Origin: Candidatus Heimdallarchaeota archaeon
GTDB taxonomy: Archaea; Asgardarchaeota; Heimdallarchaeia; Heimdallarchaeales; Heimdallarchaeaceae
DNA length: 64,000 bases
Assembly (NCBI GenBank): GCA_021399345.1
Contig: JAAFKI010000051.1
Location: forward strand, 1 to 64,000
Direction of reading: 5' to 3'
A program made the position numbers and the translations under genes. Shown one piece after another: positions 4,554 to 19,835 of the stretch (positions are counted from its first letter, which is position 1; the number at the start of each line of letters is the position of its first letter). The notes below the pieces were generated by a model. It was not told the origin of the DNA. It made no database searches and saw only the letters and a list, made by a program, of their open reading frames with translations.

Positions 4554-5720
4554 ATGGGTTTTGTGTTAGAATCACTTTATCTTTTTTTAGTAATAGCCTG
4601 CGTTGTATACTTCATTGTTTTAGTCCAAAATAGTAAGAATGGTTGGCAAACAATTGCGATTAAAGATGATGATCTTCCACTAGTAAGCATAATAGTACCT
4701 ACGTTAGAAGAGGAAGATAATATCGAACGTTGCCTTGAAAGTTTGTTAAAATTAGACTATCCTAGAATGGAAATCATTGTTTCTGATGGTGGTTCTCAAG
4801 ACAGAACTGTAGAAATAGCAAAGAAGTTTTCAGTTAAGATGGTAGTTGATTCTTATCTTCCCAAAGGATGGATAGGTAAATCATATGGGTGTCAAATTGC
4901 GTATAAAGAAGCAAAGGGCGATATACTGCTGTTTACAGATGCAGATACATATCATTCTCCTCAATCATTAAAAACAACAGTAAAACATCTATTAGCATCT
5001 GAAAGTGAGTTGTTTTCATTATTTCCCTACCAGAAAGCAAAACGCTGGTATGAATACCTTCTCAGTTTCTTCTACTTTTTGAGTTTCTTAGGCGGGGGAC
5101 CAATTAACAATATCAATAATCAATATGCAAAGGATTCAGTAATGGCAAGCGGCCAGTATATGCTTTTTACACGAGAAAGCTATAACAAAATTGGTGGTCA
5201 CGCAGCTGTAAGTAAATCTTTAGTTGAAGATTTAGCTTTAGCTCGATTGTGCAAAGATAAAGAAATGAGATTAAACTTCAAAGAATCAACATCTCTTGTT
5301 TCAACTCGTATGTATCCTAATGGATTTTCAAGTTTCTTTAAAGGGTTTAGAAAATCAATTTATGAGGGTTTTTGGCTATTAAGCAAATTTAGACTAATGT
5401 TCATTATCCTTTGGTTAATTTATATGCTTGTTTCTCCCTATTTCTTAATTCGTTATTTACTGATTCCAGACAATTGGTTATGGTGGAATTATACTATAGG
5501 AATAATAGTCAATGTAACCCTATATCTTCTTTATGCCATAATTCTCTACATATACTGGAGAAAGAAAGGTAGCTGGAATTTCATCATTTTCCTATTTTAT
5601 CCTATAACAATGCTCATAAATCTAATAATCATCCTAGTGTCCTTCTATTATGGTTTTAGAGGGATTAAATTTTCTTGGAAAAGTAGATATTATGATACTG
5701 AGAAGAGTTCCTCAAAATGA
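4554..5720 (+). CDS. Family 2 glycosyltransferase, membrane anchored (paralog 1)
   Basis: SIIVPTLEEEDNIERCLESL, SDGGSQDRT, FTDADT (DxD) plus C-terminal TM helices. Confidence 0.85.
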   Translation: MGFVLESLYLFLVIACVVYFIVLVQNSKNGWQTIAIKDDDLPLVSIIVPTLEEEDNIERCLESLLKLDYPRMEIIVSDGGSQDRTVEIAKKFSVKMVVDSYLPKGWIGKSYGCQIAYKEAKGDILLFTDADTYHSPQSLKTTVKHLLASESELFSLFPYQKAKRWYEYLLSFFYFLSFLGGGPINNINNQYAKDSVMASGQYMLFTRESYNKIGGHAAVSKSLVEDLALARLCKDKEMRLNFKESTSLVSTRMYPNGFSSFFKGFRKSIYEGFWLLSKFRLMFIILWLIYMLVSPYFLIRYLLIPDNWLWWNYTIGIIVNVTLYLLYAIILYIYWRKKGSWNFIIFLFYPITMLINLIIILVSFYYGFRGIKFSWKSRYYDTEKSSSK

Positions 5721-5821
5721 ATATTTCAAAGATTCTCATCTTTCTCCCATATTGGATATTCTCTGTCAATAAAATATTTAAATAAGCTGTTATAATTTAT
5801 AGAGCAACCATTAATGTTGGA

Positions 5822-7072
5822 GTGAAAAAGGTGCATTGGATAATTGAATCACTATATCTATTCTTAGTGATTGTCTGTTTTGTCTACTTCTTTGTATTAG
5901 TCCAAAACAGTAAGACTAGTTGGCAGATTCTTGATTTAAAGGAAGATGAATTGCCATTTGTATCAGTTATCGTTCCAACATTAGAAGAAGAAAATAATAT
6001 CTCTAAATGCCTTAATAGTGTTACGAAACTTGATTACCCTAATTATGAAGTCCTTGTAGTTGATGGAGGATCAAAAGATAAGACTGTAGAAATAGCAGAA
6101 TCTTATGGAGTTAAGGTCTTAGTAGATGCAAATCTACCAACAGGATGGATAGGTAAGTCATATGGGTGTCATATAGGCTATTTGGAAGCAAAAGGTGATG
6201 TGATTCTGTTTACAGATGCTGATACCAAACACGCACCAGAATCTCTTAAAATTACTGTTTCCCATCTATTAGGATCTAATGTTGCGCTGTTTACAATGTT
6301 ACCTTATTTGGAAGCATACAGATTTTATGAGTTCTTTCCAAGCTATCTGTATTTCCTTAGTTTCCTCTGTGGAGGTCCTAGAGAAGATGTAAACAATAGA
6401 TATAACAAAAATTCTTTTATGGCTTCTGGACAATATATGTTATTCACAAGAGAGGGATATGAGGAACTCGGTGGCCATACATCGATAAGTAGTTCTTTAG
6501 TTGAAGACGTTGCTCTAGCTAAACTTGTTAAAGAAAAAGAACTAGGGTTAAGCTATACAGATGGAACTAATTTAGTTCAAACTAGAATGTATCCTGATGG
6601 CTTTGGTCAGTATTTCAGAGCCTTTAGAAGAGCTATTTGGGGGGGTATAGTAACTCTAACACCTTGGAGAATCTTCTTTATGATCTTGTGGTTGATCTAT
6701 TTTATACTAGCTCCAATATTTATGATTCAATCATTCTTTAGTAACGGACCTTATTTCATTTGGGCAAATTATACTATTGGAATTATAGTTAATACAGGAT
6801 TGTATCTAGCATATGCTGCAACCTTCTACTTCTATTGGTACAAGAAAGGAGATCTTAAGTGGTATTTGGCTTTATTCTTCCCAATTACACAAATAGCTAA
6901 TTTCATTGTAATCGGAGTAGCTATTTATTTTGGTTTACGAGGTAAAAGGGTCTCTTGGAAAGGAAGATATTATTCAACTCAAGGAACTGAAACTCTTAAG
7001 AAGCAACAAAAAAAAGATTTAACAGATAGGAAAGTTCCCGCTGTTAAGAAAATAGACAAATCAGTTGACTGA
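5822..7072 (+). CDS. Family 2 glycosyltransferase, membrane anchored (paralog 2); GTG start
   Basis: High similarity to the preceding ORF; VDGGSKDKT, FTDADT. Confidence 0.85.
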   Translation: MKKVHWIIESLYLFLVIVCFVYFFVLVQNSKTSWQILDLKEDELPFVSVIVPTLEEENNISKCLNSVTKLDYPNYEVLVVDGGSKDKTVEIAESYGVKVLVDANLPTGWIGKSYGCHIGYLEAKGDVILFTDADTKHAPESLKITVSHLLGSNVALFTMLPYLEAYRFYEFFPSYLYFLSFLCGGPREDVNNRYNKNSFMASGQYMLFTREGYEELGGHTSISSSLVEDVALAKLVKEKELGLSYTDGTNLVQTRMYPDGFGQYFRAFRRAIWGGIVTLTPWRIFFMILWLIYFILAPIFMIQSFFSNGPYFIWANYTIGIIVNTGLYLAYAATFYFYWYKKGDLKWYLALFFPITQIANFIVIGVAIYFGLRGKRVSWKGRYYSTQGTETLKKQQKKDLTDRKVPAVKKIDKSVD

Positions 7073-7102
7073 TTCACCTAAAAATTTTTTTAATTCCAAT
7101 CT

Positions 7103-8605
7103 ATGTTTAAAATTATGAGATTTGTTCTAAGCATTGATCAAGGCACTACTGGTACTAGAGCTATGATTTTTAACAAACGAGGTGAAGAAATAGCTAAGGA
7201 CTATGTTGGGCATGAACAATTTTTTCCTAAACCTGGTTGGGTTGAACACCATCCTACAGAGATCTGGGAAAAGTCAAAGATTGTTATGAGAAACGCTCTA
7301 GATAAAGCAAAAATTACCTCCGAAGCGATATGCTCAATTGGAATAGCGAATCAAAGAGAAACAGTTGTTGCATGGAATACAAATACAGGTTTACCTTTGC
7401 ATAAAGCTATTGTTTGGCAGTGCAGACGAACTGCTGATATGTGCTCTCAACTGAAGAAAGAAGGATTTTCTGATTTGTTTACCAACAAAACTGGTCTGTT
7501 TTTAGATCCATATTTTTCTGGTACTAAAATCAAATGGTTGTTGGATAATTCATCTAAAGTTCAAGATGCTTTAAAATTCGGAAATCTTGCAGTAGGAACA
7601 ATCGATAGTTGGTTAATTTGGAACCTAACAGGAAAGCATTTAACAGATTATTCAAACGCTTCAAGAACGCTATTATTCGATATTCATAAAGGTCTCTGGA
7701 GCGAAGAACTTCTAGAAGTTTTAGATATACCTTTGCACATTTTACCAGAGGTTAGACCAAGCAGCGATAAGGAAATTTATGGGTATACCCGAAATGGAAT
7801 ATTTGAAAGCTCAATTCCTATTGCTGGTGTTGCAGGTGACCAACAAGCAGCTTTGTTCGGTCAAACTTGTTTTAAGGCGGGATCTATTAAGAATACTTAC
7901 GGAACTGGTAACTTCATGTTACTGAATACTGGTTCAAAACCAGTTAAGTCAGACAGTGGATTATTAACGACAATAGCTTGGAAAATAGATTCAGATATAC
8001 AATATGCCCTTGAAGGTAGTGTTTTCATCACTGGAGCAGTTATTCAATGGTTAGAAGAAGGAATTAGAATCTTAGAAAATAAATCGGACCTTGAGAGAAT
8101 TATGAATGAGCTAACAAATACAGATGGTGTTTTCTTTGTTCCTGCTTTTGTTGGATTAGGAGCACCACACTGGGATGCATATGCTCGTGGAATGATTATA
8201 GGCTTAACGAGAGGTACTACTCGAGACCACATAATAAGAGCCGCTATGGAATCAATTTGCTATCAGTCAGAAGACATTTTCGAGCTGATGAAAAAAGATT
8301 CAGGATTATCTATAGATATGCTCCGAGTTGATGGGGGAGTAACTAATAATGCTCAACTATTACAATTTCAATCTAACATTTCCAATGTTGCTGTTCAAAA
8401 ACCAGTTATAAATGAAACAACAGCTCTCGGGGCTGCATATCTAGCAGGTTTAGCCGTTGACTACTGGACTAGTTTAGAAGATATAAGTCAAAATTTTCAA
8501 GTAGAAAAGGAATTCTTACCCAATATGAACCAAAGTGAAAGAAATTTATTGCTTCAGACATGGAAAAGAGCTCTAGAACGATCAATGAATTGGAGCGAAG
8601 TTTAG
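7103..8605 (+). CDS. glpK: Glycerol kinase (FGGY family)
   Basis: SIDQGTTGTRAMIF, WQCRRTADMC, GVAGDQQAALFGQ, TYGTGNFMLLNTG. Confidence 0.93.
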   Translation: MFKIMRFVLSIDQGTTGTRAMIFNKRGEEIAKDYVGHEQFFPKPGWVEHHPTEIWEKSKIVMRNALDKAKITSEAICSIGIANQRETVVAWNTNTGLPLHKAIVWQCRRTADMCSQLKKEGFSDLFTNKTGLFLDPYFSGTKIKWLLDNSSKVQDALKFGNLAVGTIDSWLIWNLTGKHLTDYSNASRTLLFDIHKGLWSEELLEVLDIPLHILPEVRPSSDKEIYGYTRNGIFESSIPIAGVAGDQQAALFGQTCFKAGSIKNTYGTGNFMLLNTGSKPVKSDSGLLTTIAWKIDSDIQYALEGSVFITGAVIQWLEEGIRILENKSDLERIMNELTNTDGVFFVPAFVGLGAPHWDAYARGMIIGLTRGTTRDHIIRAAMESICYQSEDIFELMKKDSGLSIDMLRVDGGVTNNAQLLQFQSNISNVAVQKPVINETTALGAAYLAGLAVDYWTSLEDISQNFQVEKEFLPNMNQSERNLLLQTWKRALERSMNWSEV

Positions 8606-8793
8606 TTAACTGTCTTTTCCTTTCCTATAGTAGGTGTCTATATAATTTTGCTTTCCTTTAAACAATACATCTACCGACAATATTTGGTAAATCTAGTATT
8701 CCATTATTGGATTAAATTAACTTTTTCTTTAATCTACTAGTCACTCTCTAGTTTCAAAAGAAATATTATCTATTTATAATAAATTATTCGGTG

Positions 8794-8809
8794 CTAGACA
8801 AATGTCTAG
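8794..8809. repeat. Inverted repeat CTAGACA-AA-TGTCTAG in long intergenic region
   Basis: Perfect 7-bp arms, 2-nt spacer, read directly. Confidence 0.5.
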
Positions 8810-9199
8810 TAAAATATTTTGAAGAAAGACTCTGCTAATCTTCTAGTTGTAAGATATTTCATAAAACTACCACTAACTGATAATTAACGGCCTGAAATCA
8901 AGATTTACACTTTTTAGGTGTATCTTTTCTATACTGCAGGTAAGATGCTTAAGGGTTTCTCTATACTTTTGTCCATTAACTTATTCTAGTAAGCTCTTAA
9001 TGAAATATAGAATCAATTATCTTAGTGACCAAATTAATCTTATCTGAAAGAAGAAGATTCTTATCTTCAACAAATATTTGCTTTATACTAACTAATATTT
9101 CTTTTAATAAACTAATTATTTGTTTAATAAACGTATTACAAAACATTTTTTAAGTTACTTCATATAGCTCAATAACGACTCTTTGGATAGGGGTAAAGG

Positions 9200-9586
9200 T
9201 TGACAACTCTGTACGATTATATTGGGGAAAAAGATAAAAAAGTTGAAGAGGAAAGAATAAAGGAAGAAGAATCTCGTAATGAGTTTCTTACCAAAATGGA
9301 AAAACAGAAGCGCTTAAGTGTTAATTTTACAGGTTTTGATGGGCGATTATCTGATTTGGTAGATGGGATTAGAACCATTCCAAACTACAACAATCTTAAA
9401 GGGTATGTCAGAGAGAATGTTCTTCCAGATAACCCGGAAATTTCATACGAAAAATTATCTTTCAAGACTGGAATACATGAAGGTGTGGCTTTAGTTATTC
9501 TTTACGACTTGTATAATGATAAGTTAGAAGAAGAATTAAAGGATCTTGATGAAGAAGATGTTGATCGTGACTTTCGTTATGATTAA
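9200..9586 (+). CDS. Hypothetical charged small protein (TTG start)
   Basis: 128 aa ORF in a gap between other genes, no recognised domain. Confidence 0.6.
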   Translation: MTTLYDYIGEKDKKVEEERIKEEESRNEFLTKMEKQKRLSVNFTGFDGRLSDLVDGIRTIPNYNNLKGYVRENVLPDNPEISYEKLSFKTGIHEGVALVILYDLYNDKLEEELKDLDEEDVDRDFRYD

Positions 9587-9595
9587 ATTACTATT

Positions 9596-10300
9596 TTACT
9601 TGCCATAATTGAGTCGATCACTCAAGGATTTAGGAAGATCTAAATCGGTCATTTTCTCTTGAACAGGTTTGTAATCATACTTCAGATGAATCATAGCAGC
9701 ACTGTATGGATTTGTACTCACAATAGAATAGTATGCTCCAGGTTTTCCATTGCGTGGTTGCCCTACAGAACCTGGATTTAAGAAATTGTGTTTCTTGATT
9801 TTAGCTTTAAATGGAACATGTGTATGTCCTACCATCAGAACATTTGTTTTTGTAATCTCAAATGCTTCCTCAAGCATTGTTTTCCATTTTTTATCTGAAT
9901 AAGTGTCCATATAATCAAAAGTTTTGAATGGAGACCCATGAACTAAATAGATACTACAACCATCTCTTTCAATTGTTTTTCTCCGAGGTAGAGATGTTAG
10001 CCATTTCTTGTTTTCAGCATGAATATTATCTTGCGTCCATTGAATCATTGTATATGCAGTTGGATTGAAATAAAAAGAAGGTTCATCTCCAATTACTCCT
10101 GCATCATGATTACCTAACATTGAAATGGAGCACTCTTCTCTAATTAGTTCAATACATTCATTTGGAAACGGATAATATCCTACAATATCACCTAAACAAA
10201 TAATCTCATCGATATTTTTTCTTTTCTGGATGTCTTGTAAAACAGCCTCTAAAGCATAAATGTTTGAATGAATGTCCGAAATTACAGCTATTCTTGGCAT
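9596..10300 (-). CDS. Metallophosphoesterase (YfcE/MJ0936-like phosphodiesterase)
   Basis: ISDIHSN, GDIVGYYP, GNHD, GHTHVP motifs. Confidence 0.9.
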   Translation of the reverse strand: MPRIAVISDIHSNIYALEAVLQDIQKRKNIDEIICLGDIVGYYPFPNECIELIREECSISMLGNHDAGVIGDEPSFYFNPTAYTMIQWTQDNIHAENKKWLTSLPRRKTIERDGCSIYLVHGSPFKTFDYMDTYSDKKWKTMLEEAFEITKTNVLMVGHTHVPFKAKIKKHNFLNPGSVGQPRNGKPGAYYSIVSTNPYSAAMIHLKYDYKPVQEKMTDLDLPKSLSDRLNYGK

Positions 10301-10483
10301 AAGAAGACCTCCAAATTAAGTAATGTTAGCACACTTTTTAAGTTCTACTCAAAGATGAACCAACAAATCGTAGTTTTAGATATCTTTGAAAAGCATTAAT
10401 TGATTGATTAATATAATTTGCGCTATCGAAGAATAGTTCTGAAAAGCAGCAAAACTTTTCAAGATTGTGGAAATCTTATGGTA

Positions 10484-11404
10484 ATGAGTTTAGCAACTAA
10501 AATTGGTAATATAACAATTAGAAATCCAATGATACTGGCTTCTGGAGTTTTAGGGACGACTTATTCCACTCTAAATCGAATGTATGAAGCTGGTCTTGGA
10601 GCAGTAATAACAAAAAGCATTGGAGCTAAATCTAGATCAGGCAATCCTAATCCTAGTGTTTTTGCACTAAATGAAATTCGAAGCGTGATTAACTCCGTTG
10701 GATTGGCAAATCCAGGATACCAAATCTTTAGAGAAGACATTGAAATTCTAATGAAGAACTCTACTCCTACCATTGTTTCAATATTTGGTGAGAATAAGGA
10801 GGAATTTAAAGAAGTTCTTGAGGGATTAAAGGATCTTCCTGTACTAGCCTTTGAATTAAACTTTAGTTGCCCTAATACTGAGATGGGAGGAGCACAAATT
10901 GGAACAGATCCTGATTTAGTTTATAAAATTGTTAAGGAACTAAGAGCAAAAACCAAAACACCTCTCTGGGTTAAATTAACCCCCAATGTATCAGATGTAA
11001 TAGAAATTGCTTCTGCTGCAGTTAAAGGAGGATGTGATACTTTAGTTGCAATAAATACACTGAAAGCTATGGTTATTGATATTCACACTAAACAACCAAT
11101 TCTAGGGTATAAGAAAGGGGGCTTATCTGGTGCTGCAATAAAACCTGTTGGAATAAGATATGTGTATGATCTTTACGAGCATTTTGGGGATAAAATACCT
11201 TTGATAGGCGTAGGGGGGATTTTTAGAGGAGAGGACATAATAGAATACCTTTTAGCTGGAGCTTCAGCTGTAGAAATAGGAACTTCTCTAGGCGTTGCAT
11301 ATCCTGAAAATATGGTTAGATTCTTCCAGATGAAGATAAAGAAATATATGAAAGAACACCAATTTGGTTCAATTAGTGAAATAACCGGAGGTGTACACAG
11401 ATGA
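10484..11404 (+). CDS. pyrD: Dihydroorotate dehydrogenase catalytic subunit (type 1B); start probably internal to the listed ORF
   Basis: NPMILASGVLGTT, ELNFSCPNTEMGG, LVAINTLKAM, GVGGIF; followed by pyrK homolog. Confidence 0.9.
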   Translation: MSLATKIGNITIRNPMILASGVLGTTYSTLNRMYEAGLGAVITKSIGAKSRSGNPNPSVFALNEIRSVINSVGLANPGYQIFREDIEILMKNSTPTIVSIFGENKEEFKEVLEGLKDLPVLAFELNFSCPNTEMGGAQIGTDPDLVYKIVKELRAKTKTPLWVKLTPNVSDVIEIASAAVKGGCDTLVAINTLKAMVIDIHTKQPILGYKKGGLSGAAIKPVGIRYVYDLYEHFGDKIPLIGVGGIFRGEDIIEYLLAGASAVEIGTSLGVAYPENMVRFFQMKIKKYMKEHQFGSISEITGGVHR

Positions 11405-12252
11405 CGAATCAAACTCTTCTTAATGATAAACCAATTATGGGCGTAATTGTTGAAAAATGGGAAGAGTGCTTTGAGACTTATGGTTTCAAAATAGAACTAC
11501 CAGTTAAAGTTCAAAATGCTAAACCAGGACAATTTATTATGCTATGGGTTCCAGGAGAAGATGAATACCCAATAGGTATTGCAGGGTTGAAGGATAGTAT
11601 TCTAGAAGTTGGAATAGCTAAAATGGGTCCTGGAACAGAAGCTATGCATAAGAAAGAAGTAGGTGACCTAGTTGGAATCAGAGGTATTTACGGAAAACCA
11701 TTTACTCCACCAGAAGATGTGAATCACCTTCTAATTGGAGGAGGGTTTGGTATGACACCTTTGAAATTGCTTACTGAAACACTTATGAGCAATGAGAATA
11801 AGCAAAATATACATGTTTTTGAGGGAGCGCGATCAAAAGATAGATTAATGTATCTTGAGTGGTTACGAGACCTACACGATCGAGGTAAAATTATTTTTCA
11901 TGCATGTACAGACGATGGTTCGTATGGTTACCAGGGTTTTCCTACCGTTGATTTAGAAATGTTCCTTCAAGAAACAGAAACACCATCAGTGATTTATGCA
12001 GCAGGTCCAGAAAAGATGATGAAAGCAATTTTTGATTTAGGTAAGAAATTTGCTAATGTTGTTGATATGCAAATGAGTCTAGCTGATAGATACATGAGAT
12101 GTGGGTTTGGAGCTTGTTCTAGCTGTGCTGTGGACCCTACAGGTTGGAGGATTTGTGTGGATGGACCTATTTTTAACACAGAGAAACTTGAGAAAATAAG
12201 TGATTTTGGTGTCTACAAACGTCTTGAAACAGGCGAAAAAAAGAGGATTTAG
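11401..12252 (+). CDS. pyrK: Dihydroorotate dehydrogenase electron transfer subunit (FAD/2Fe-2S)
   Basis: CGFGACSSCAVDPTGWRICVDGPIF 2Fe-2S motif, overlaps pyrD stop. Confidence 0.88.
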   Translation: MTNQTLLNDKPIMGVIVEKWEECFETYGFKIELPVKVQNAKPGQFIMLWVPGEDEYPIGIAGLKDSILEVGIAKMGPGTEAMHKKEVGDLVGIRGIYGKPFTPPEDVNHLLIGGGFGMTPLKLLTETLMSNENKQNIHVFEGARSKDRLMYLEWLRDLHDRGKIIFHACTDDGSYGYQGFPTVDLEMFLQETETPSVIYAAGPEKMMKAIFDLGKKFANVVDMQMSLADRYMRCGFGACSSCAVDPTGWRICVDGPIFNTEKLEKISDFGVYKRLETGEKKRI

Positions 12253-12298
12253 GAAATTGTAGTTCTGCAAAATCTTATTGAAGATAGATTTTTCCTTT

Positions 12299-13078
12299 TT
12301 ATTTTGTATCAGAATAGATTTTTAGAACCTCAAGTTCAACTCTATTCCATTGTTTGATTTTCTCCCACCGTGATCCTATCCCGGCTATAATTACTATTTT
12401 AACTGGTTTAGCTTCACAATTTCTTACTAAATCTATTAGAGCAGTCTGTGTTGATCCAGATCTTATTATATCATCTACAATCAGAATTTTTTCTTCAGAA
12501 CGAATGAATTTAGTATCAACTCCTATAGTTTCAACTCTCCCTTGAGATGTTGATTGTATATCTGCAGTAATGAATATCGTAGTACCTAAAGGTTTTCTCT
12601 TTCTGGCATAGATACAATCAATGTTTAACAGATGAGCTAATGTCATAGCTATTGGAATGCCATCAACTTCAGCAGTAATTATCTTATCTACATCATGTGG
12701 GATAATCCCATGATATATTGCTAAAAACAAAATAGCTTTTAGTGTTTTAGAATCATTAAGCAAATGAAGATTAGATATTCGAATGTTGCCAAACTCATCT
12801 ATGTCTTTAATAATATGATCTGTAATAAGCTGATCAATTGACAAATTGAAACTTGCATCTTGAGTAAGTGCTCGTAAAAGTTCATCTTTTAGTTTGGATT
12901 TTGGTAAAGCTTTTCCATTAATATAACGTGAAAGATTGGCAATAGATACTTCTACTCCATTTCTTTCCAGTGCTGCTCTCATGCTATCAAGAGTGTCGAA
13001 TCCTTTAAAGGCCATCTGAAGTAGATTCAAGGTCATTAGTTTCTCTTGAGCATCTTTATAGCTCTCTGCTGAACTCAT
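12299..13078 (-). CDS. HTH + phosphoribosyltransferase-domain regulator (GfcR-like, orotate PRTase-like)
   Basis: N-terminal HTH-like segment (VSIANLSRYINGKALP), PRPP motif ILIVDDIIRSGSTQTA. Confidence 0.8.
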   Translation of the reverse strand: MSSAESYKDAQEKLMTLNLLQMAFKGFDTLDSMRAALERNGVEVSIANLSRYINGKALPKSKLKDELLRALTQDASFNLSIDQLITDHIIKDIDEFGNIRISNLHLLNDSKTLKAILFLAIYHGIIPHDVDKIITAEVDGIPIAMTLAHLLNIDCIYARKRKPLGTTIFITADIQSTSQGRVETIGVDTKFIRSEEKILIVDDIIRSGSTQTALIDLVRNCEAKPVKIVIIAGIGSRWEKIKQWNRVELEVLKIYSDTK

Positions 13079-13092
13079 TTGAAATAATTCCC

Positions 13093-13106
13093 ATATACAA
13101 GTATAT
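13093..13106. promoter_or_regulatory. Inverted repeat ATATAC-AA-GTATAT in divergent gfcR-like/pyrF intergenic region
   Basis: Perfect 6-bp arms close to the regulator start codon; candidate operator or TATA element. Confidence 0.3.
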
Positions 13107-13200
13107 TTTTGTTACTGTTGCTTTCAAATAATATTTCATTAGTTTGTGAGTATATTTCTGATAAACAAATTGTTAAATATCCTCATAAGAATCATTTTCC

Positions 13201-14013
13201 ATGGTTTCATCTCAGAATTCATTTCTTCAAAGGTACCAGAAGATTGTTTCACACAAGAATAGTATCTTGTGTATTGGACTTGATCCTGTTCTACCTTCTC
13301 AAAGAAGTAAATATACGATGAAGGATGATGATAGACTTGATTTCATGCGAACAATGATTAAAGATGTAGCTCCTCATACTTCTGTAATTAAAATGAATAG
13401 ACAGTTCTTGATTGGTCTTACCGCAGATGAAATAAGATCACTAAACATTCTCATTCATCAAAATGAGATGTTATCTATTATTGATCACAAATTGAGTGAT
13501 ATTGATTCTTCTAATGAATCAGCAATTTTCTGGTTTAAAGAAGAAGGATTTGATGCTTTTACATTTTCTCCATTTGGAGCCAATATTGAAAAAGCTTCTT
13601 TGCTTGCTCATCAAAAGGATTTAGGGATTATAGTTTTGACACTTCTTTCTAATCCAGAAGCTATTTTTTACAAGATTGCACAATTAGAAGAGAAACCTAT
13701 CTATCTTTATATCGCAGATCGGTGCAAAAGAGCTCAAGTTGACGGTTTTTGGATAGGGAATGCTGAGCATATAGATTCTAAGGATGTAGGACGAATTAGA
13801 GAAAGAATAGGAGACAATGTAGTAGCAATGACTCCATTGTATGGTAAACAACACCTCATTGTAAAAAGTACAATTTTTCACTATGATGGAAAATCTTTGA
13901 TAACAGTTGGAGGACCAATTATCTATTCAGATGATTCTGTTCAAAAAGCTGAAGAATATAAACTTCTTCTAAATGGATTTAGAGAAGAGATGTCTCAACG
14001 AAGAAACAAATAG
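13201..14013 (+). CDS. pyrF: Orotidine-5'-phosphate decarboxylase (long form)
   Basis: ILCIGLDP, catalytic DHKLSDID motif, VGGPIIYS. Confidence 0.85.
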   Translation: MVSSQNSFLQRYQKIVSHKNSILCIGLDPVLPSQRSKYTMKDDDRLDFMRTMIKDVAPHTSVIKMNRQFLIGLTADEIRSLNILIHQNEMLSIIDHKLSDIDSSNESAIFWFKEEGFDAFTFSPFGANIEKASLLAHQKDLGIIVLTLLSNPEAIFYKIAQLEEKPIYLYIADRCKRAQVDGFWIGNAEHIDSKDVGRIRERIGDNVVAMTPLYGKQHLIVKSTIFHYDGKSLITVGGPIIYSDDSVQKAEEYKLLLNGFREEMSQRRNK

Positions 14014-14019
14014 TTGCTC

Positions 14020-14610
14020 CTAAACACTCTTTTCCCAGCTTGAGAATACCATTTTGCCATCTTTTGTTGTTAGAAAACCTCTAAGTAACTTGCTTTTGTC
14101 TAATTCTGATCTACACATTGGACAGGATTTTTTCTTATCTAACCAATCAATGAAGTGTTTTACATGTCCAGCATAGTTGCATTCAGGGCATAGAATAACT
14201 TTAGTTTCGATTTGATCATCTATTTTAAATTCTTGCAAGCAAATTATGCATTTCTCTCCAGATATCGCCTCTTCAACAAGAGTAGCCCATTCTGAAATTT
14301 CAGGAGTTTCTTCAGCAAGTTCAATTTGATCTTTATCTTGAAATTGATTGAGTAAATTTGAAATTCTCTGTTTATTAACGAAGGATAAAGATGTAGAGTT
14401 ATCCACTTTCTGCTCTAAGTTTGTAAGTAATTTTGCTGCTTGTTGCTTAAAACTACTAACCGTCTTCTGAAAAGATTTCCCTATTCTTTCAGATACTCTG
14501 AGTTCATTTTCATCTGTTTCTTCTTTTACTTTTTTTCCACAAAAAGAACAGAAAAAACTTATGTCTAGTATTTCTTTTCCACAAAATGGACAGGATTTAA
14601 TTGAAACCAC
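14020..14610 (-). CDS. RING-like zinc finger protein with N-terminal double zinc ribbon
   Basis: CPFCGKE...CSFCGKK at N-term; CIICLQEF...CPECNYAGHVKHFIDWLDKKKSCPMC at C-term. Confidence 0.75.
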   Translation of the reverse strand: MVSIKSCPFCGKEILDISFFCSFCGKKVKEETDENELRVSERIGKSFQKTVSSFKQQAAKLLTNLEQKVDNSTSLSFVNKQRISNLLNQFQDKDQIELAEETPEISEWATLVEEAISGEKCIICLQEFKIDDQIETKVILCPECNYAGHVKHFIDWLDKKKSCPMCRSELDKSKLLRGFLTTKDGKMVFSSWEKSV

Positions 14611-14619
14611 CTACCTAAG

Positions 14620-15504
14620 CTAACCTTTTGGAATTTCCTTCTTAGCTTGACATTGAGGACAATAGAACCAACTACCTCCAGAGGGAGGGTAATATCTATA
14701 CATGCCTAAACCGCATGTATCACATACTTCAGAATGGTCTTCAAACTCAAGAGCAATTTGTAGGAAATCATGAGTTTCAAAAAAGTATTTGGCAAATTTT
14801 GTTGTTTCTAGGTTGAGTTCCGCTTCTCCAATCTCAACTAAAGCACCATGAATTTTATGGGTAGTTATATAATCGAAAGATTGGCGAGATTTTACTCGTC
14901 CTTGAGCTAATGGGTTCATTGTAATGTAAAGATTTTCAGATGAATTGACTATCATTTCAAGCAAACTTCTATTTTGAACACCAAAACCAAGCAGATTGAA
15001 AGGAATGAGGTAGATTTTGATATCAGGATTAGCTGTTATGAAGAATGAAACAGTACCAATTGGTTCAATACTAAATAACCCTATATGTTCAGTAAATTTA
15101 GAAACAACGTTAGAATATTTCAGAACTATATCAGTATCTCTTTGATCAGTAATAGAATAGTCTAAGAAAATCACAAAAGGTTTAAACTCTAAGGCTTGTA
15201 ACAATGTTGTGATTGTACTAATATCATCAAAACGGACGATAACCATTATGGGGAACTCTTTCATCTCTGCATGTAATGCATTAAGAAAATTTACCATTTC
15301 CTCATCATATAGATAGAACAAACATCCATTAGAACCAGCTTCTTTTAATCTCTTAAGTAAAGGTAGAAGAACTTCTTGATTCTTAATAGGAAATGTTTCA
15401 GGAATAGCATCAAAGTCTGCATAACGGACGAATCCAGAGATTACATCAGGAATGATATCTTTTAATTTATCCAATTCACTCATTAAACTCAAGAACATAT
15501 ACAC
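14620..15504 (-). CDS. Hypothetical protein with C-terminal zinc ribbon
   Basis: CDTCGLGMYRYYPPSGGSWFYCPQC. Confidence 0.65.
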   Translation of the reverse strand: MYMFLSLMSELDKLKDIIPDVISGFVRYADFDAIPETFPIKNQEVLLPLLKRLKEAGSNGCLFYLYDEEMVNFLNALHAEMKEFPIMVIVRFDDISTITTLLQALEFKPFVIFLDYSITDQRDTDIVLKYSNVVSKFTEHIGLFSIEPIGTVSFFITANPDIKIYLIPFNLLGFGVQNRSLLEMIVNSSENLYITMNPLAQGRVKSRQSFDYITTHKIHGALVEIGEAELNLETTKFAKYFFETHDFLQIALEFEDHSEVCDTCGLGMYRYYPPSGGSWFYCPQCQAKKEIPKG

Positions 15505-15520
15505 AGTCTTTATTTAAAAT

Positions 15521-16795
15521 TTATCGCAATGAAGGGAGGTTTTTAGAAAAAAAATCATCATTTTTAACAAAAAGCTGAGATTTATCTTCTTTTTTTATCA
15601 GATAACTGCTTTTTCTTGTTTGAAGCATTTCAATTATGTGTCGAAAAACATGTTTTTCAAAAGGAAGAGTAAGGATTTCCTCAAATTTCATGAGACTAAT
15701 ATCTGAAGGTTTATTTTCCAATTCAATAGCAGCTTCCCGTATTTCGTATGCTTTTTGCCAAGATTCTTCATAAATCTCCCCCATGAGAAAAGCTATCCTA
15801 GACAGTTTAGTGGCCATTTCAAGATTTGTTCTTAATGTCCCTTCTGGAATATAACGCGGTTCAAAGAAATTTATTCCATATTCCTTACTCATTTGATAGC
15901 CTTGTTTTATTGGATTTAGTAATTTGTATTTTCCCCAAATTTCCATATCGGGTTGGCCATAAATTGAGTTATTTTTGTACAGCTCATCATACAGAATCAA
16001 TAACTCTGGGTAATATTCATCTATTATTTTCAGGAAATCTTCTTTGTTTCTTCCAGGTTTTAACGTTAATCCTCCAGTTATAACAAAATCTGCTCTAGCT
16101 TCTTTTAATTGCTGAAAAAGCTCCATAAGATTTGTCTTTGTATCTCCTATCCATGGAATTACAGGAGTTATATAACAACCTGCAGAAATTCCTTCTTCTC
16201 GAAATTTTTTGAGAGCTGAAAGCCTATCATTTGTTGAACTCGCATTGGGTTCAAAAATAAGTTGCTCTTGTGGGTTAGAGAGAGTAATTGTAAAAGCGAC
16301 CCTTGCAAATGTATCTAGATTGATTTTCTTTATCAAATCAATATCTCGTAGGACTAGAGCATTCTTAGTTAATATTCTAACTGGGAAACCATAATCATAA
16401 GCTACTTGAAGAACTTTTCTTGTTATTTCTAATTCTGCTTCAGCAGGTTGATAAACATCGCAAATATTGCCAAAAATATTAATGATGAATTTTGGATTAC
16501 CACTTGGTATTTTTTTTCTATTTGATTGAGGTATGAAATCCAAAAGGGTGTTTGTTTTTTCTCTATTGATTGGTAGAAATCCTTTGTTAATCAGATGTTC
16601 TTCAAGTAATTCAGGTGCATTAATCTTAGCTCTAATCTTATTACTATAATCATCATGCATGAAATACTCATCAGATTTTCCATCACAGTAAGAACAGTTG
16701 TGAAAGCATCCTTGATAAATATTCAAATGAATATGGTGAGGACTTCTCTTAGATGTCCGAATTAGCGATTTTGCTTCATATTTCTCAATAATCAT
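15521..16795 (-). CDS. Radical SAM protein, SplB/DNA-repair-photolyase family
   Basis: YQGCFHNCSYCDGK CxxxCxxC; NIYQGC motif; GNICDVYQPAE. Confidence 0.85.
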   Translation of the reverse strand: MIIEKYEAKSLIRTSKRSPHHIHLNIYQGCFHNCSYCDGKSDEYFMHDDYSNKIRAKINAPELLEEHLINKGFLPINREKTNTLLDFIPQSNRKKIPSGNPKFIINIFGNICDVYQPAEAELEITRKVLQVAYDYGFPVRILTKNALVLRDIDLIKKINLDTFARVAFTITLSNPQEQLIFEPNASSTNDRLSALKKFREEGISAGCYITPVIPWIGDTKTNLMELFQQLKEARADFVITGGLTLKPGRNKEDFLKIIDEYYPELLILYDELYKNNSIYGQPDMEIWGKYKLLNPIKQGYQMSKEYGINFFEPRYIPEGTLRTNLEMATKLSRIAFLMGEIYEESWQKAYEIREAAIELENKPSDISLMKFEEILTLPFEKHVFRHIIEMLQTRKSSYLIKKEDKSQLFVKNDDFFSKNLPSLR

Positions 16796-16870
16796 ACCAA
16801 TCTTCCAGGAATTACTGAGAAAATAACCACATTTGAATATTTAAAGGAGAAAATGAGGAAATTGGATAAA

Positions 16871-16968
16871 TTCAGCTGCGTTTGAATTCTACTCTGAATC
16901 CACCTTTAGGATATTTCCAATCAACGCTACCATGAGGACACACAATACGACAGATCCCGCACTCAAGT
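16871..16968 (-). pseudogene. Degenerate duplicate of fixX 3' end (C-terminal ~33 codons, no start)
   Basis: Reverse complement encodes [33 protein letters not shown], versus intact FixX [32 protein letters not shown]; hand alignment 16880-16967 vs 19532-19619 has 12 mismatches in 88 bp, no gaps. Confidence 0.9.
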
Positions 16969-17036
16969 AATAATTTCAGAAAATCATTTAAAGATGAATA
17001 TATATTATTATACAGTATTACTGGGTGTGAGATGTT

Positions 17037-18284
17037 GTGAGTGATAGTAATTTAATAAAGCTAATCAATCCTATATTGATTGCAAGAGTTCCACGCGAAG
17101 AATATACTGAGAATCTCACACTACAGAATGTACTTTCAGCAAAAAAAGACAATATGAACAAATTTTGGGATGAAAAGATAGCATTAATTATCACATTTAT
17201 TGTTTCCATTGGATTCTTGATTCCTGCTGCGATTTATGATATGGTGAGTGTTTTTAGATCAAGTGAAAATTATTCTCAAATTTTACTTCTACCTCTAAAC
17301 ACACAATTTAAGTTGTTTTTATATTTTTCATTTCAGTTTGGTATCATTCTGTTTATAGCTCTAATTTTCTATTCAGCATTAAGATATTACTTGATTCAGG
17401 TTAATTATAGTCCAACAAATTACAAGTACAACTGCATAAAAAATGAGGATTTGCTATATATTCTACTCAATGAAGAAAATTGCTTAGATGAAATTATATT
17501 TTCAAAATGGAAAACTGCTGCTAATTTTGATGAGAATCATCAAACTGAAGAAAATCTACATTCAGGTGAAAGAGAGTATTTTCTTTTCTTTGCTAAAGAT
17601 TACTGGAACTGTCAATTTGCAATTCAGCCTGAATTTAAAGAAAAACTAAGTATGATTTGTATACCTTTCTTTTTAATGTCAACAATCATAATATTGGTAC
17701 CTTATATTCAAAAGATCAAGGGTAACTATTCATTTATAATAGTTCTAATAATTCCAGTTTTCGTTGTAATTGTCGTTCTTATATTATTATTAATTGAGAA
17801 AAAAATTAAGAAACCTTTAGGTTATATAGTCACAGTTCTAATTCTATTAGCTTTCATTGTAAATAATATAATGGTTGTTTTGTTTATTATATATACGAAT
17901 ATCTTTGCCTTTACAACCAATACTAAAAAACCTGGTTTTATAGCATCCTATTATAATATCTCTCTTTTTGCATTTTATTTCTATTCGTTTCTTGTCATAT
18001 TAAGCGTTTTAGGTTCTCTAGTTGATAGGAAAAAACAGATTCGCAGTTTTAAGCAACATTACAAAAAACAAATTATACGTATTGAAAAAACGGTTGCTCA
18101 AACAACTAATGATAATGGAGACTTAAATGGTAAATTAATCTTATTTTATAAAAAACAGAGTGTTTTTGAGAAGGCTTCGATTCTCCCATTAAATTTTGGA
18201 AAATACATTGTAGGTTTTACAACATATCTAGGTTTTATAAGTCTTATTTCAGCTATTTTTACTTACATTCTGAATACACTTTGA
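17037..18284 (+). CDS. Uncharacterised multi-TM membrane protein (GTG start)
   Basis: Multiple hydrophobic segments; no recognised domain. Confidence 0.75.
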   Translation: MSDSNLIKLINPILIARVPREEYTENLTLQNVLSAKKDNMNKFWDEKIALIITFIVSIGFLIPAAIYDMVSVFRSSENYSQILLLPLNTQFKLFLYFSFQFGIILFIALIFYSALRYYLIQVNYSPTNYKYNCIKNEDLLYILLNEENCLDEIIFSKWKTAANFDENHQTEENLHSGEREYFLFFAKDYWNCQFAIQPEFKEKLSMICIPFFLMSTIIILVPYIQKIKGNYSFIIVLIIPVFVVIVVLILLLIEKKIKKPLGYIVTVLILLAFIVNNIMVVLFIIYTNIFAFTTNTKKPGFIASYYNISLFAFYFYSFLVILSVLGSLVDRKKQIRSFKQHYKKQIIRIEKTVAQTTNDNGDLNGKLILFYKKQSVFEKASILPLNFGKYIVGFTTYLGFISLISAIFTYILNTL

Positions 18285-18369
18285 ACCCATTCAAGTACAA
18301 AAATGATTTTTTAGCTTTAAATATGGAATACCGGTTATAGAATCAGGCGTTTTACTCAAAATAAATTGA

Positions 18370-19527
18370 ATGATCTTTATGGAAGAGAAACAAGAAAAAC
18401 CATTTCAATGCGGAATATGTAAACGTAGATTTAAGCGTAAAGATTACCTAAAAAGGCATATGATGGTACATACCAAGGAGAAACCATTTCTTTGTGATAC
18501 CTGTGGCAAAGCTTTTTCTCGAAAAACTTCTTTAAAAAATCACTTCAGAGTGCATACAGGAGAGAAACCTTTCATATGTAAAGAGTGTGGAAAGAAATTT
18601 TCAGATAAAGGTAATCTATCAAAACATCTGAGATTGCATACGGGAGAGAAACCATATATATGCCATTTTTGTAATAAGGAATTTTCGAGATCTCATCATT
18701 TACAGTCTCATCTTAGAATTCATACTAATGAAAAACCATTTAGTTGTACATATTGTGACAAGTCATTTTCTAGAGAATTTATTCTGAAAAACCATTTGAA
18801 AATACATACAAACCAAAAACCATATGAATGTAATTTTTGTGAGAAAAAATTTCGTCAACTAGCTCATTTAGAAAGTCACCTTCGGATACATACTGGTGAG
18901 AAACCTTACTATTGTTCTGAATGTGGTAAGTCATTCAGAACCTCATCCTCCCTTATTAGCCATAAAAGAACTCATTCTGGAGAAAAACCATACAAGTGTA
19001 CAAGATGTGGAAAGGAATTTTCGAGATTATTTACCTTAAAATATCATATCAAAAATAATTCGTGTTGGTATAACAAAAAATCGTCTATTCAATGGGAAAA
19101 TTTGTGCAAAGATATAGCAGAAATTCTCTTTGAAGAAAAAAAATGGAAATGGAAACCTAAAATTCTTACCCCAGAATTGGTTAATAGAAAGTGGATAATT
19201 CCTGAAATCTTAGTATTCTCACAAAATGACAAAAAGGAGCTAATTGATGCAAAAAGATCCATTGATTCTATAAGAAAAAAAGATTTAGATGTATATCCAT
19301 TGTATGCTGATATTATACATTTCTGGTGTTTAGTTCCAACAAAAAGGAGAATTCAATCTAGTAATGTTAAAGTGTTAGATTCAGATGATATAATTGGTCT
19401 TCTAAAAAAGAAAGTATCTGAACAGAATTCTGAGAGAATAGACAAAATAATTTCACAAATTGAAATGTTGAAAAAAGGAATGATTATTAAAGATCAGACA
19501 ATTTTGTCTGACTTCAACGAAAACTAA
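18370..19527 (+). CDS. Eight-finger C2H2 zinc finger protein fused to putative PD-(D/E)XK nuclease-like C-terminal domain
   Basis: Eight tandem C-x2-C-x12-H-type units with HTGEKP/HTNEKP/HSGEKP linkers; C-term WENLCKDIAEILF...IIPEILVFSQNDKKELIDAKRS...YADIIHFWCLVP. Confidence 0.85.
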   Translation: MIFMEEKQEKPFQCGICKRRFKRKDYLKRHMMVHTKEKPFLCDTCGKAFSRKTSLKNHFRVHTGEKPFICKECGKKFSDKGNLSKHLRLHTGEKPYICHFCNKEFSRSHHLQSHLRIHTNEKPFSCTYCDKSFSREFILKNHLKIHTNQKPYECNFCEKKFRQLAHLESHLRIHTGEKPYYCSECGKSFRTSSSLISHKRTHSGEKPYKCTRCGKEFSRLFTLKYHIKNNSCWYNKKSSIQWENLCKDIAEILFEEKKWKWKPKILTPELVNRKWIIPEILVFSQNDKKELIDAKRSIDSIRKKDLDVYPLYADIIHFWCLVPTKRRIQSSNVKVLDSDDIIGLLKKKVSEQNSERIDKIISQIEMLKKGMIIKDQTILSDFNEN

Positions 19528-19835
19528 CTATGTTTAAATTCTACTCCAAATCCACCTTTAGGATATTTCCAGTCAACGCTACCATGAGGACAAATAATGC
19601 GACATGTGGCACACTCAAGACACGCAACATAATCGAAGACAACGGGTCCTTCTGCTTCCTCTTCTTCTGTAAATTTGTAGCAATCTGCTGGGCATCCATA
19701 TACACAATCATAAGTTGTACACTTTGCCTTACAGATTTCTGGATTTATCTCAATATGTGCATAATTTTGATCGGTTGTGATTTTTGTTAAATCTAGTTTT
19801 TCCTCTAGTGTTTTGGGTTTGTTTGATTTGCTCAT
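19524..19835 (-). CDS. fixX: FixX-like ferredoxin of ETF:quinone oxidoreductase
   Basis: KCTTYDCVYGCPADCY and CLECATCRIICPHGSVDWKYPKGGFGV. Confidence 0.92.
   Translation of the reverse strand: MSKSNKPKTLEEKLDLTKITTDQNYAHIEINPEICKAKCTTYDCVYGCPADCYKFTEEEEAEGPVVFDYVACLECATCRIICPHGSVDWKYPKGGFGVEFKHS

Follow-up and report, generated by a model that had tools for sequence, protein, structure and literature searches.

Homing endonucleases include a PD-(D/E)xK family (I-Ssp6803I) as well as free-standing genes (PMC3943268). R2 proteins possess one to three N-terminal zinc fingers together with a restriction-like endonuclease (PMC12222951), and Cleave-and-Rescue (ClvR) elements pair a nuclease that targets an essential gene with a recoded rescue (PMC7951863). 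Circular Heimdallarchaeum genomes have been described with a homing-endonuclease element located at the gene for 16S rRNA, but without mention of zinc fingers (PMC8813620). For a natural zinc-finger nuclease or C2H2 homing enzyme in archaea, no published precedent was found in the open-access full texts searched (subscription papers and preprints were mostly outside the scope of this search). To our knowledge, no natural system among homing endonucleases and R2 reads its target by a long C2H2 array. Long arrays of fingers connected by HTGEKP linkers are regarded as eukaryotic.

We analysed a stretch of 64,000 nucleotides (the window) from a Candidatus Heimdallarchaeota archaeon, which is part of contig 175 in a 3.27-Mb genome (88.6% complete). 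One of its ORFs (385 aa) very probably encodes a natural zinc-finger homing endonuclease, with DNA binding, cleavage and homing by recombination being inferred. As in homing endonucleases, a nuclease gene occupies the long target of its own product within a conserved gene, the target is altered or interrupted in the carriers, the distribution is sporadic, and in the same genome the nuclease domain is also fused to PF18780. In contrast to them, recognition of the target falls to a long array of tandem C2H2 fingers that is in codon register, neither intron nor intein is involved, an altered gene end is carried along, and there is a finger-only partner that matches the host's own allele. R2-type retrotransposons also use zinc fingers and a restriction-like endonuclease for site-specific insertion, and R2 is among the top fold matches of the domain; however, R2 has a reverse transcriptase, whereas the 385-aa protein consists of fingers and nuclease only. 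With engineered zinc-finger nucleases it shares a C2H2 array followed by a C-terminal nuclease domain, but it is natural, has eight fingers and a natural genomic target, and its PD-(D/E)XK domain is unrelated by sequence to any named family. The likeness to engineered ClvR lies in a nuclease against a conserved gene, a tightly linked recoded resistant version and cargo; unlike ClvR, the system is natural, archaeal, finger- rather than RNA-guided, and sited at the target gene. Homing itself is already known, and we regard the mode of recognition as distinctly new.

The finger array and the C-terminal domain

The sequence-only reading had proposed eight tandem C2H2 fingers fused to a PD-(D/E)XK-like domain, and the Pfam matches bear out the array (eight zf-C2H2 units; PF00096, E 7e-45; zf-H2C2_2, E 7e-63). 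The fingers are tandem beta-beta-alpha units with C2H2 ligands and TGEKP-type linkers (TKEKP, TGEKP, TGEKP, TNEKP, TNQKP, TGEKP, SGEKP), as is required of a C2H2 array. Re-reading of the ORF gave the same linkers and the same helix contacts at positions -1, 2, 3 and 6 as listed before (R/D/Y/R, R/T/S/N, D/G/N/K, R/H/H/S, R/F/I/N, Q/A/H/S, T/S/S/S, R/F/T/Y), and the ORF sequence also has the Cys as final ligand of the last finger and the domain of ~150 aa behind the fingers.

Table 1. Features of the window discussed in the text (position 1 is the first nucleotide of the window)
Feature	Position	Strand
Left direct repeat: vestigial ferredoxin 3' end, continuous with host 3' flank	16880-16967	-
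Insert, ~2.56 kb, missing at the locus in the nearest relatives	16968-19531	.
Companion membrane-protein gene inside the insert, 415 aa, ~seven hydrophobic segments	17037-18284	+
ORF of the putative zinc-finger nuclease (385 aa), with eight C2H2 fingers and a PD-(D/E)XK domain	18370-19527	+
Eight C2H2 fingers, whole array	18403-19065	+
Finger 1	18403-18471	+
Finger 2	18487-18555	+
Finger 3	18571-18639	+
Finger 4	18655-18723	+
Finger 5	18739-18807	+
Finger 6	18823-18891	+
Finger 7	18907-18975	+
Finger 8 (last ligand Cys)	from 18991	+
PD-(D/E)XK nuclease domain (predicted)	19057-19524	+
Codon of E243 in the nuclease domain	19096-19098	+
Active-site codons P278-E279	19201-19206	+
Active-site codons D293-x-K295	19246-19254	+
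Predicted target in the host: gene for the ferredoxin-like subunit of ETF:quinone oxidoreductase (PF05187)	19524-19835	-
Right direct repeat: 3' end of living ferredoxin gene, target altered (TGCCAC for TGGAAC)	19532-19619	-
Altered target site GTGTCTTGAGTGTGCCACATGTCG; insertion edge after GTGT, finger-8 end	19600-19623	-

The C-terminal ~150 aa had no Pfam match, nor did they match by sequence any homing endonuclease family described in Pfam, and a PDB search with the domain sequence alone returned no useful match. Nevertheless, an alignment of the domain in 22 relatives revealed an invariant W-E in helix 1, P-[E/D] and [D/E]-x-K. An AlphaFold2 model of the domain built from the 22-domain alignment (pLDDT 81, pTM 0.77) is predicted to run helix-strand-strand-strand-helix-strand (H7-24 E29-32 E51-54 E60-66 H74-82 E86-91), with P-E lying directly ahead of strand 2 and D-x-K closing strand 3, i.e., the alpha-beta-beta-beta-alpha-beta core and conserved P-(D/E)...(D/E)-x-K motif of PD-(D/E)XK enzymes. 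All structure readings refer to this domain-only model, because the full-length model was good for the fingers and poor for the nuclease. Its best PDB matches in Foldseek are PD-(D/E)XK enzymes (Bax1, EcoO109I, McrC, R2 endonuclease, Card1, AvaII, MspJI, VRR-NUC), and the viral fold matches are of the same kind; FokI is absent among the top matches. The TM-scores are modest (0.3-0.5). Such scores are common across the diverse PD-(D/E)XK fold. A non-nuclease fold, or a lack of conservation of the E and DxK residues among homologues, would have refuted the original proposal, and neither was found. Alignment, AlphaFold2 and Foldseek support the assignment of the domain as a PD-(D/E)XK nuclease, and hence, computationally, a sequence-specific endonuclease with the architecture of engineered zinc-finger nucleases; catalysis is inferred, not shown.

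The search for the fusion in archaeal genomes, also suggested previously, retrieved it from many Heimdallarchaeota metagenome-assembled genomes (MAGs). Matches to the domain are present in 20 of the 227 genomes of the phylum by single sequence and in 24 by profile, nearly all in the genus of the window, and all named relatives are Candidatus Heimdallarchaeota MAGs. Chance or contamination as the origin of the fusion can be ruled out, as it recurs in many Heimdallarchaeota MAGs that are independent of each other. The same is true for eukaryotic contamination: the neighbouring genes are archaeal and syntenic with the sister genomes, and relatives are present in many MAGs. A viral or plasmid origin was rejected as well, with no relatives found in IMG/VR, phage or plasmid collections. 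The window's own genome encodes a second eight-finger protein with the same nuclease domain (L002) and a protein in which this domain is joined to DUF4379 treble-clef repeats (L003; assigned via the Pfam matches in the relatives L038 and L039). Proteins with the nuclease domain and five DUF4379 (PF14311) repeats (L003, L038, L039, L040/L057) can be found in four genomes or more, with G026 having a copy interrupted by a stop or frameshift. C2H2 fingers and DUF4379 repeats are not the only DNA-binding arrays on this domain: a 576-aa protein of the window's genome (L173, 2133-3860 on the minus strand, G000:C64) has it (profile E 2.3e-10) joined to a third kind, repeats of PF18780, the 'homing endonuclease associated repeat'.

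The ferredoxin locus and the predicted target of the fingers

Within the genus, the radical-SAM gene is followed in conserved order by the genes for the ferredoxin-like subunit and ETF:QO, and the first two genes are adjacent or nearly so in 14 of the 17 congeneric loci read. In the window, and in none of the other loci read, a membrane-protein gene and an intact finger-nuclease gene lie between them, placed in the 3' end of the ferredoxin-like gene beside the ETF:QO gene; the flanking genes are syntenic with the sister genomes. The companion membrane protein has no homologue in the genus and no Pfam or PADLOC match. The insert is bordered by a direct repeat of 88 bp (76/88 identical). The left copy represents the old gene end, because it continues into the normal 3' flank of the host, and the right copy, which completes the living gene, was probably brought by the insert, as we infer.

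G019, a genome of a different clade, has a decayed insert that agrees with that of the window in site and orientation; here, a duplicate of the ferredoxin end is followed by a small ORF for a membrane protein, the remnant of a nuclease gene broken by stops, and an intact ferredoxin gene. The alignment score of this duplicate to G019's own ferredoxin end is 85 (shuffled maximum, 33). Since the nearest relatives of both the window and G019 are empty, two independent insertions are the simplest reading of these sequences, although a single old insertion followed by many losses is not excluded. Note that other, unrelated inserts are located at the radical-SAM-ferredoxin junction in G011 (L096, 3700-7600; 1133-aa ORF) and G012 (L097, 5509-6648; 380-aa ORF); this junction may be an insertion hot spot.

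According to the textbook C2H2 code, the array is predicted to read 5'-nnG nnn nGA nnG nGG nAC nTG GnG-3' from finger 8 to finger 1. This fits the coding strand of the ferredoxin gene over the insertion edge (in G026 GTGT/CTTGAGTGTGGAACATGTCG, the slash marking the edge; the G010 allele is GTGTTTAGAATGTGGGACATGTCG), with finger 1 fitting poorly and the edge lying at the finger-8 end, i.e., on the side where the nuclease domain attaches. For scoring, a matrix was written from general rules (R-1 = G, Q-1 = A, D-1 = C, N3 = A, H3 = G, S/T3 = T or C, R6 = G, otherwise weak preferences). The ferredoxin match had been seen by eye before this, and rpS11 (see below) served as the independent test. In insert-free close relatives the site scored 18.0, 20.3, 22.2 (L085) and 18.7 of a maximum of 26.3, with runners-up near 9. 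Scanning 5,000-19,000 positions placed the insertion site at rank 1 in 14 of 17 sister loci, L085 included; it did not rank first in L084, L090 and L093 and did so only narrowly in L092. Twelve of the 40,320 possible finger orders performed as well, and in the parallel orientation the score fell below zero. A genome-wide search with a pattern of 11 fixed bases, from which the non-fitting 5' base of finger 1 was omitted, yielded 16 matches across 21 genomes, of which 10 lie at the insertion site (reversed-pattern control, 3), and in eight congeners (G010, G011, G012, G013, G019, G021, G025, G026) the insertion site was the sole match.

The genome of the window had no match to the 11-base pattern. 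At the site its ferredoxin gene has TGCCAC in place of TGGAAC, which replaces Gly by Ala and lowers the score to 13.9; the vestigial copy is changed as well (score 11.3). G018, with no insert, also has a changed allele (score 6.8). The intact ferredoxin gene of G019 still scores 18, though its nuclease is dead. The sequence-only reading had proposed a target prediction with a genome scan as a check and had missed target and role, and it was the surroundings of the gene that pointed to its function: judged from the sequences, the fingers read the insertion site of the gene, with binding inferred, and since they read it, the ORF behaves like a homing endonuclease. 

Relatives at rpS11

In most genomes of the genus, a related finger-nuclease gene is located in the 3' end of rpS11, directly 3' of a gene group which we take to be rpS13-S4-S11 from our own reading of the sequence. 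Scored by the unchanged matrix, these arrays have their best sites on the antisense strand of S11 TPLPH[D/N]GC, in exact codon register (nRC ANC CRT YRT GNG GNA RNG GNG, finger 8 to finger 1). The wobble base of the codon is the middle base of each triplet and is faced by helix residue 3, and the near-fixed residues -1 and 6 face invariant codon positions. For two distant relatives (L034 and L036), the matrix matches were only weak and on short contigs. In L036 (G053) a divergent finger-nuclease gene lies opposite a PLP gamma-lyase gene with an apparently early ORF end, possibly a third target gene.

About half of the genomes with the rpS11 element also encode finger-only proteins; in nine genomes such a gene (four or five fingers) precedes the nuclease gene. 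Residue 3 of the finger-only proteins matches the host's own S11 wobble bases in 34 cases with no mismatch (2 unassigned), whereas fingers 1-4 of the nucleases match in 9 cases and mismatch in 44 (15 unassigned); when alleles were reassigned to arrays 20,000 times, the match count was never as low. Note that these counts are not all independent, because some genomes share near-identical alleles. We know of no counterpart to a nuclease paired with a putative shield, both reading wobble bases. As to the finger-only protein, whose role is inferred, a shield of the host S11 against related nucleases and a repressor of its own operon just downstream are about equally well supported.

These proteins match their own site immediately 5' of their operon and the fingers do target the adjacent gene, which would also suit a transcription regulator of the ferredoxin or S11 operon with an idle nuclease fold. 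We consider this very unlikely, as the active-site residues are conserved, the insertion at the target is flanked by repeats, and a regulator would leave unexplained why nuclease-bearing arrays avoid the resident allele and nuclease-less arrays match it.

A vestigial S11 tail 3' of the nuclease gene (29/29 nt) is present in the window's own genome, and shorter tails in at least six further loci; among the S11 loci examined, no clear tail was found in L043, L044, L045, L048 and L050. The cargo between nuclease and tail is variable (YaaC-like, PLD/DrmC-like, NERD nuclease with transposase, HIT, TPR); it varies between species in L041, L042, L047, L049, L051, L053, L056 and L099, the NERD nuclease being accompanied by an rve transposase. 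Part of this cargo resembles defence parts (PLD/DrmC-like, NERD nuclease) and the nuclease fold is restriction-like, so that a role in defence against viral or plasmid DNA may be considered. It is nonetheless hardly credible: the targets predicted for the fingers lie at the point of insertion in conserved genes of the cell, viral, phage and plasmid collections contain no relatives, and PADLOC gave no meaningful match to the nuclease, only a weak spurious one over the fingers.

In G020 the downstream host gene follows S11 directly (L117). Its S11 24-mer is the same as in the element-bearing G010, yet no element lies behind it; this could be a resistant allele left after loss of the element or an allele transferred alone. 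The S11 alleles of carriers are changed at synonymous positions and the insert is fixed across most of the genus. rpS11 is an essential gene. This agrees with addiction following the logic of cleave-and-rescue, in which regaining a sensitive allele exposes a cell to harm by the nuclease, the linked altered end protects carriers, and the element moves by ordinary recombination. We regard addiction as possible but doubtful: the window element is sporadic and sits precisely on its target, and a distant species has a second insertion there, homing being the more direct explanation of these facts. Addiction and homing are not mutually exclusive and can both hold.

Proposed mechanism and its implications

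Homing is thus preferred for the window element, and a family of natural zinc-finger homing endonucleases with recoded, cleavage-resistant target ends, their cleavage being inferred, is the best explanation of the data as a whole. It has the marks of selfish genes that spread themselves by homing: the nuclease gene is found where its own product is predicted to bind, within a conserved gene (ferredoxin; S11), the carriers' own site is altered or interrupted (self-resistance, judged by sequence), and the distribution is sporadic with empty alleles in close relatives (at S11, G020). Among the elements of this explanation, the fusion, the fold family, the conserved active site, the repeat-flanked insertion, the agreement between fingers and insertion site and the altered own site can be read from the sequences.

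In the proposed mechanism, the eight C2H2 fingers would read ~24 bp within a conserved gene of the host, in this case in the 3' part of the gene for the ferredoxin-like ETF:QO subunit, and the C-terminal PD-(D/E)XK domain would cut beside finger 8. An uninterrupted sensitive allele would be cut, and repair from the element-bearing copy would insert the element; both binding with cleavage and homing by recombination or repair are inferences. The target gene would remain whole because the element supplies its own version of the 3' end, whose altered recognition sequence should resist cutting in the carrier, a resistance that is likewise inferred. The relatives in most genomes of the genus would act on rpS11 in the same way, and the nuclease-less finger protein may serve as a shield or autorepressor by reading the S11 allele of its own host. 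Whether all this amounts to a modular zinc-finger drive, in which arrays track synonymous variants via residue 3, recoded ends resist and a nuclease-less array for the own allele shields, remains a tentative proposal, for which we would claim somewhat less than even support.

If the homing reading is true, nature has made zinc-finger nucleases unaided, in an archaeal group near the origin of eukaryotes, and has put them to use as homing genes whose target is recoded and resistant, resembling engineered cleave-and-rescue designs. Many evolved arrays are paired with a genomic target and avoided alleles, and therefore the C2H2 recognition code and its evolution would be directly testable. The finding also raises the question of the origin of the long HTGEKP-linked arrays that have been attributed to eukaryotes.
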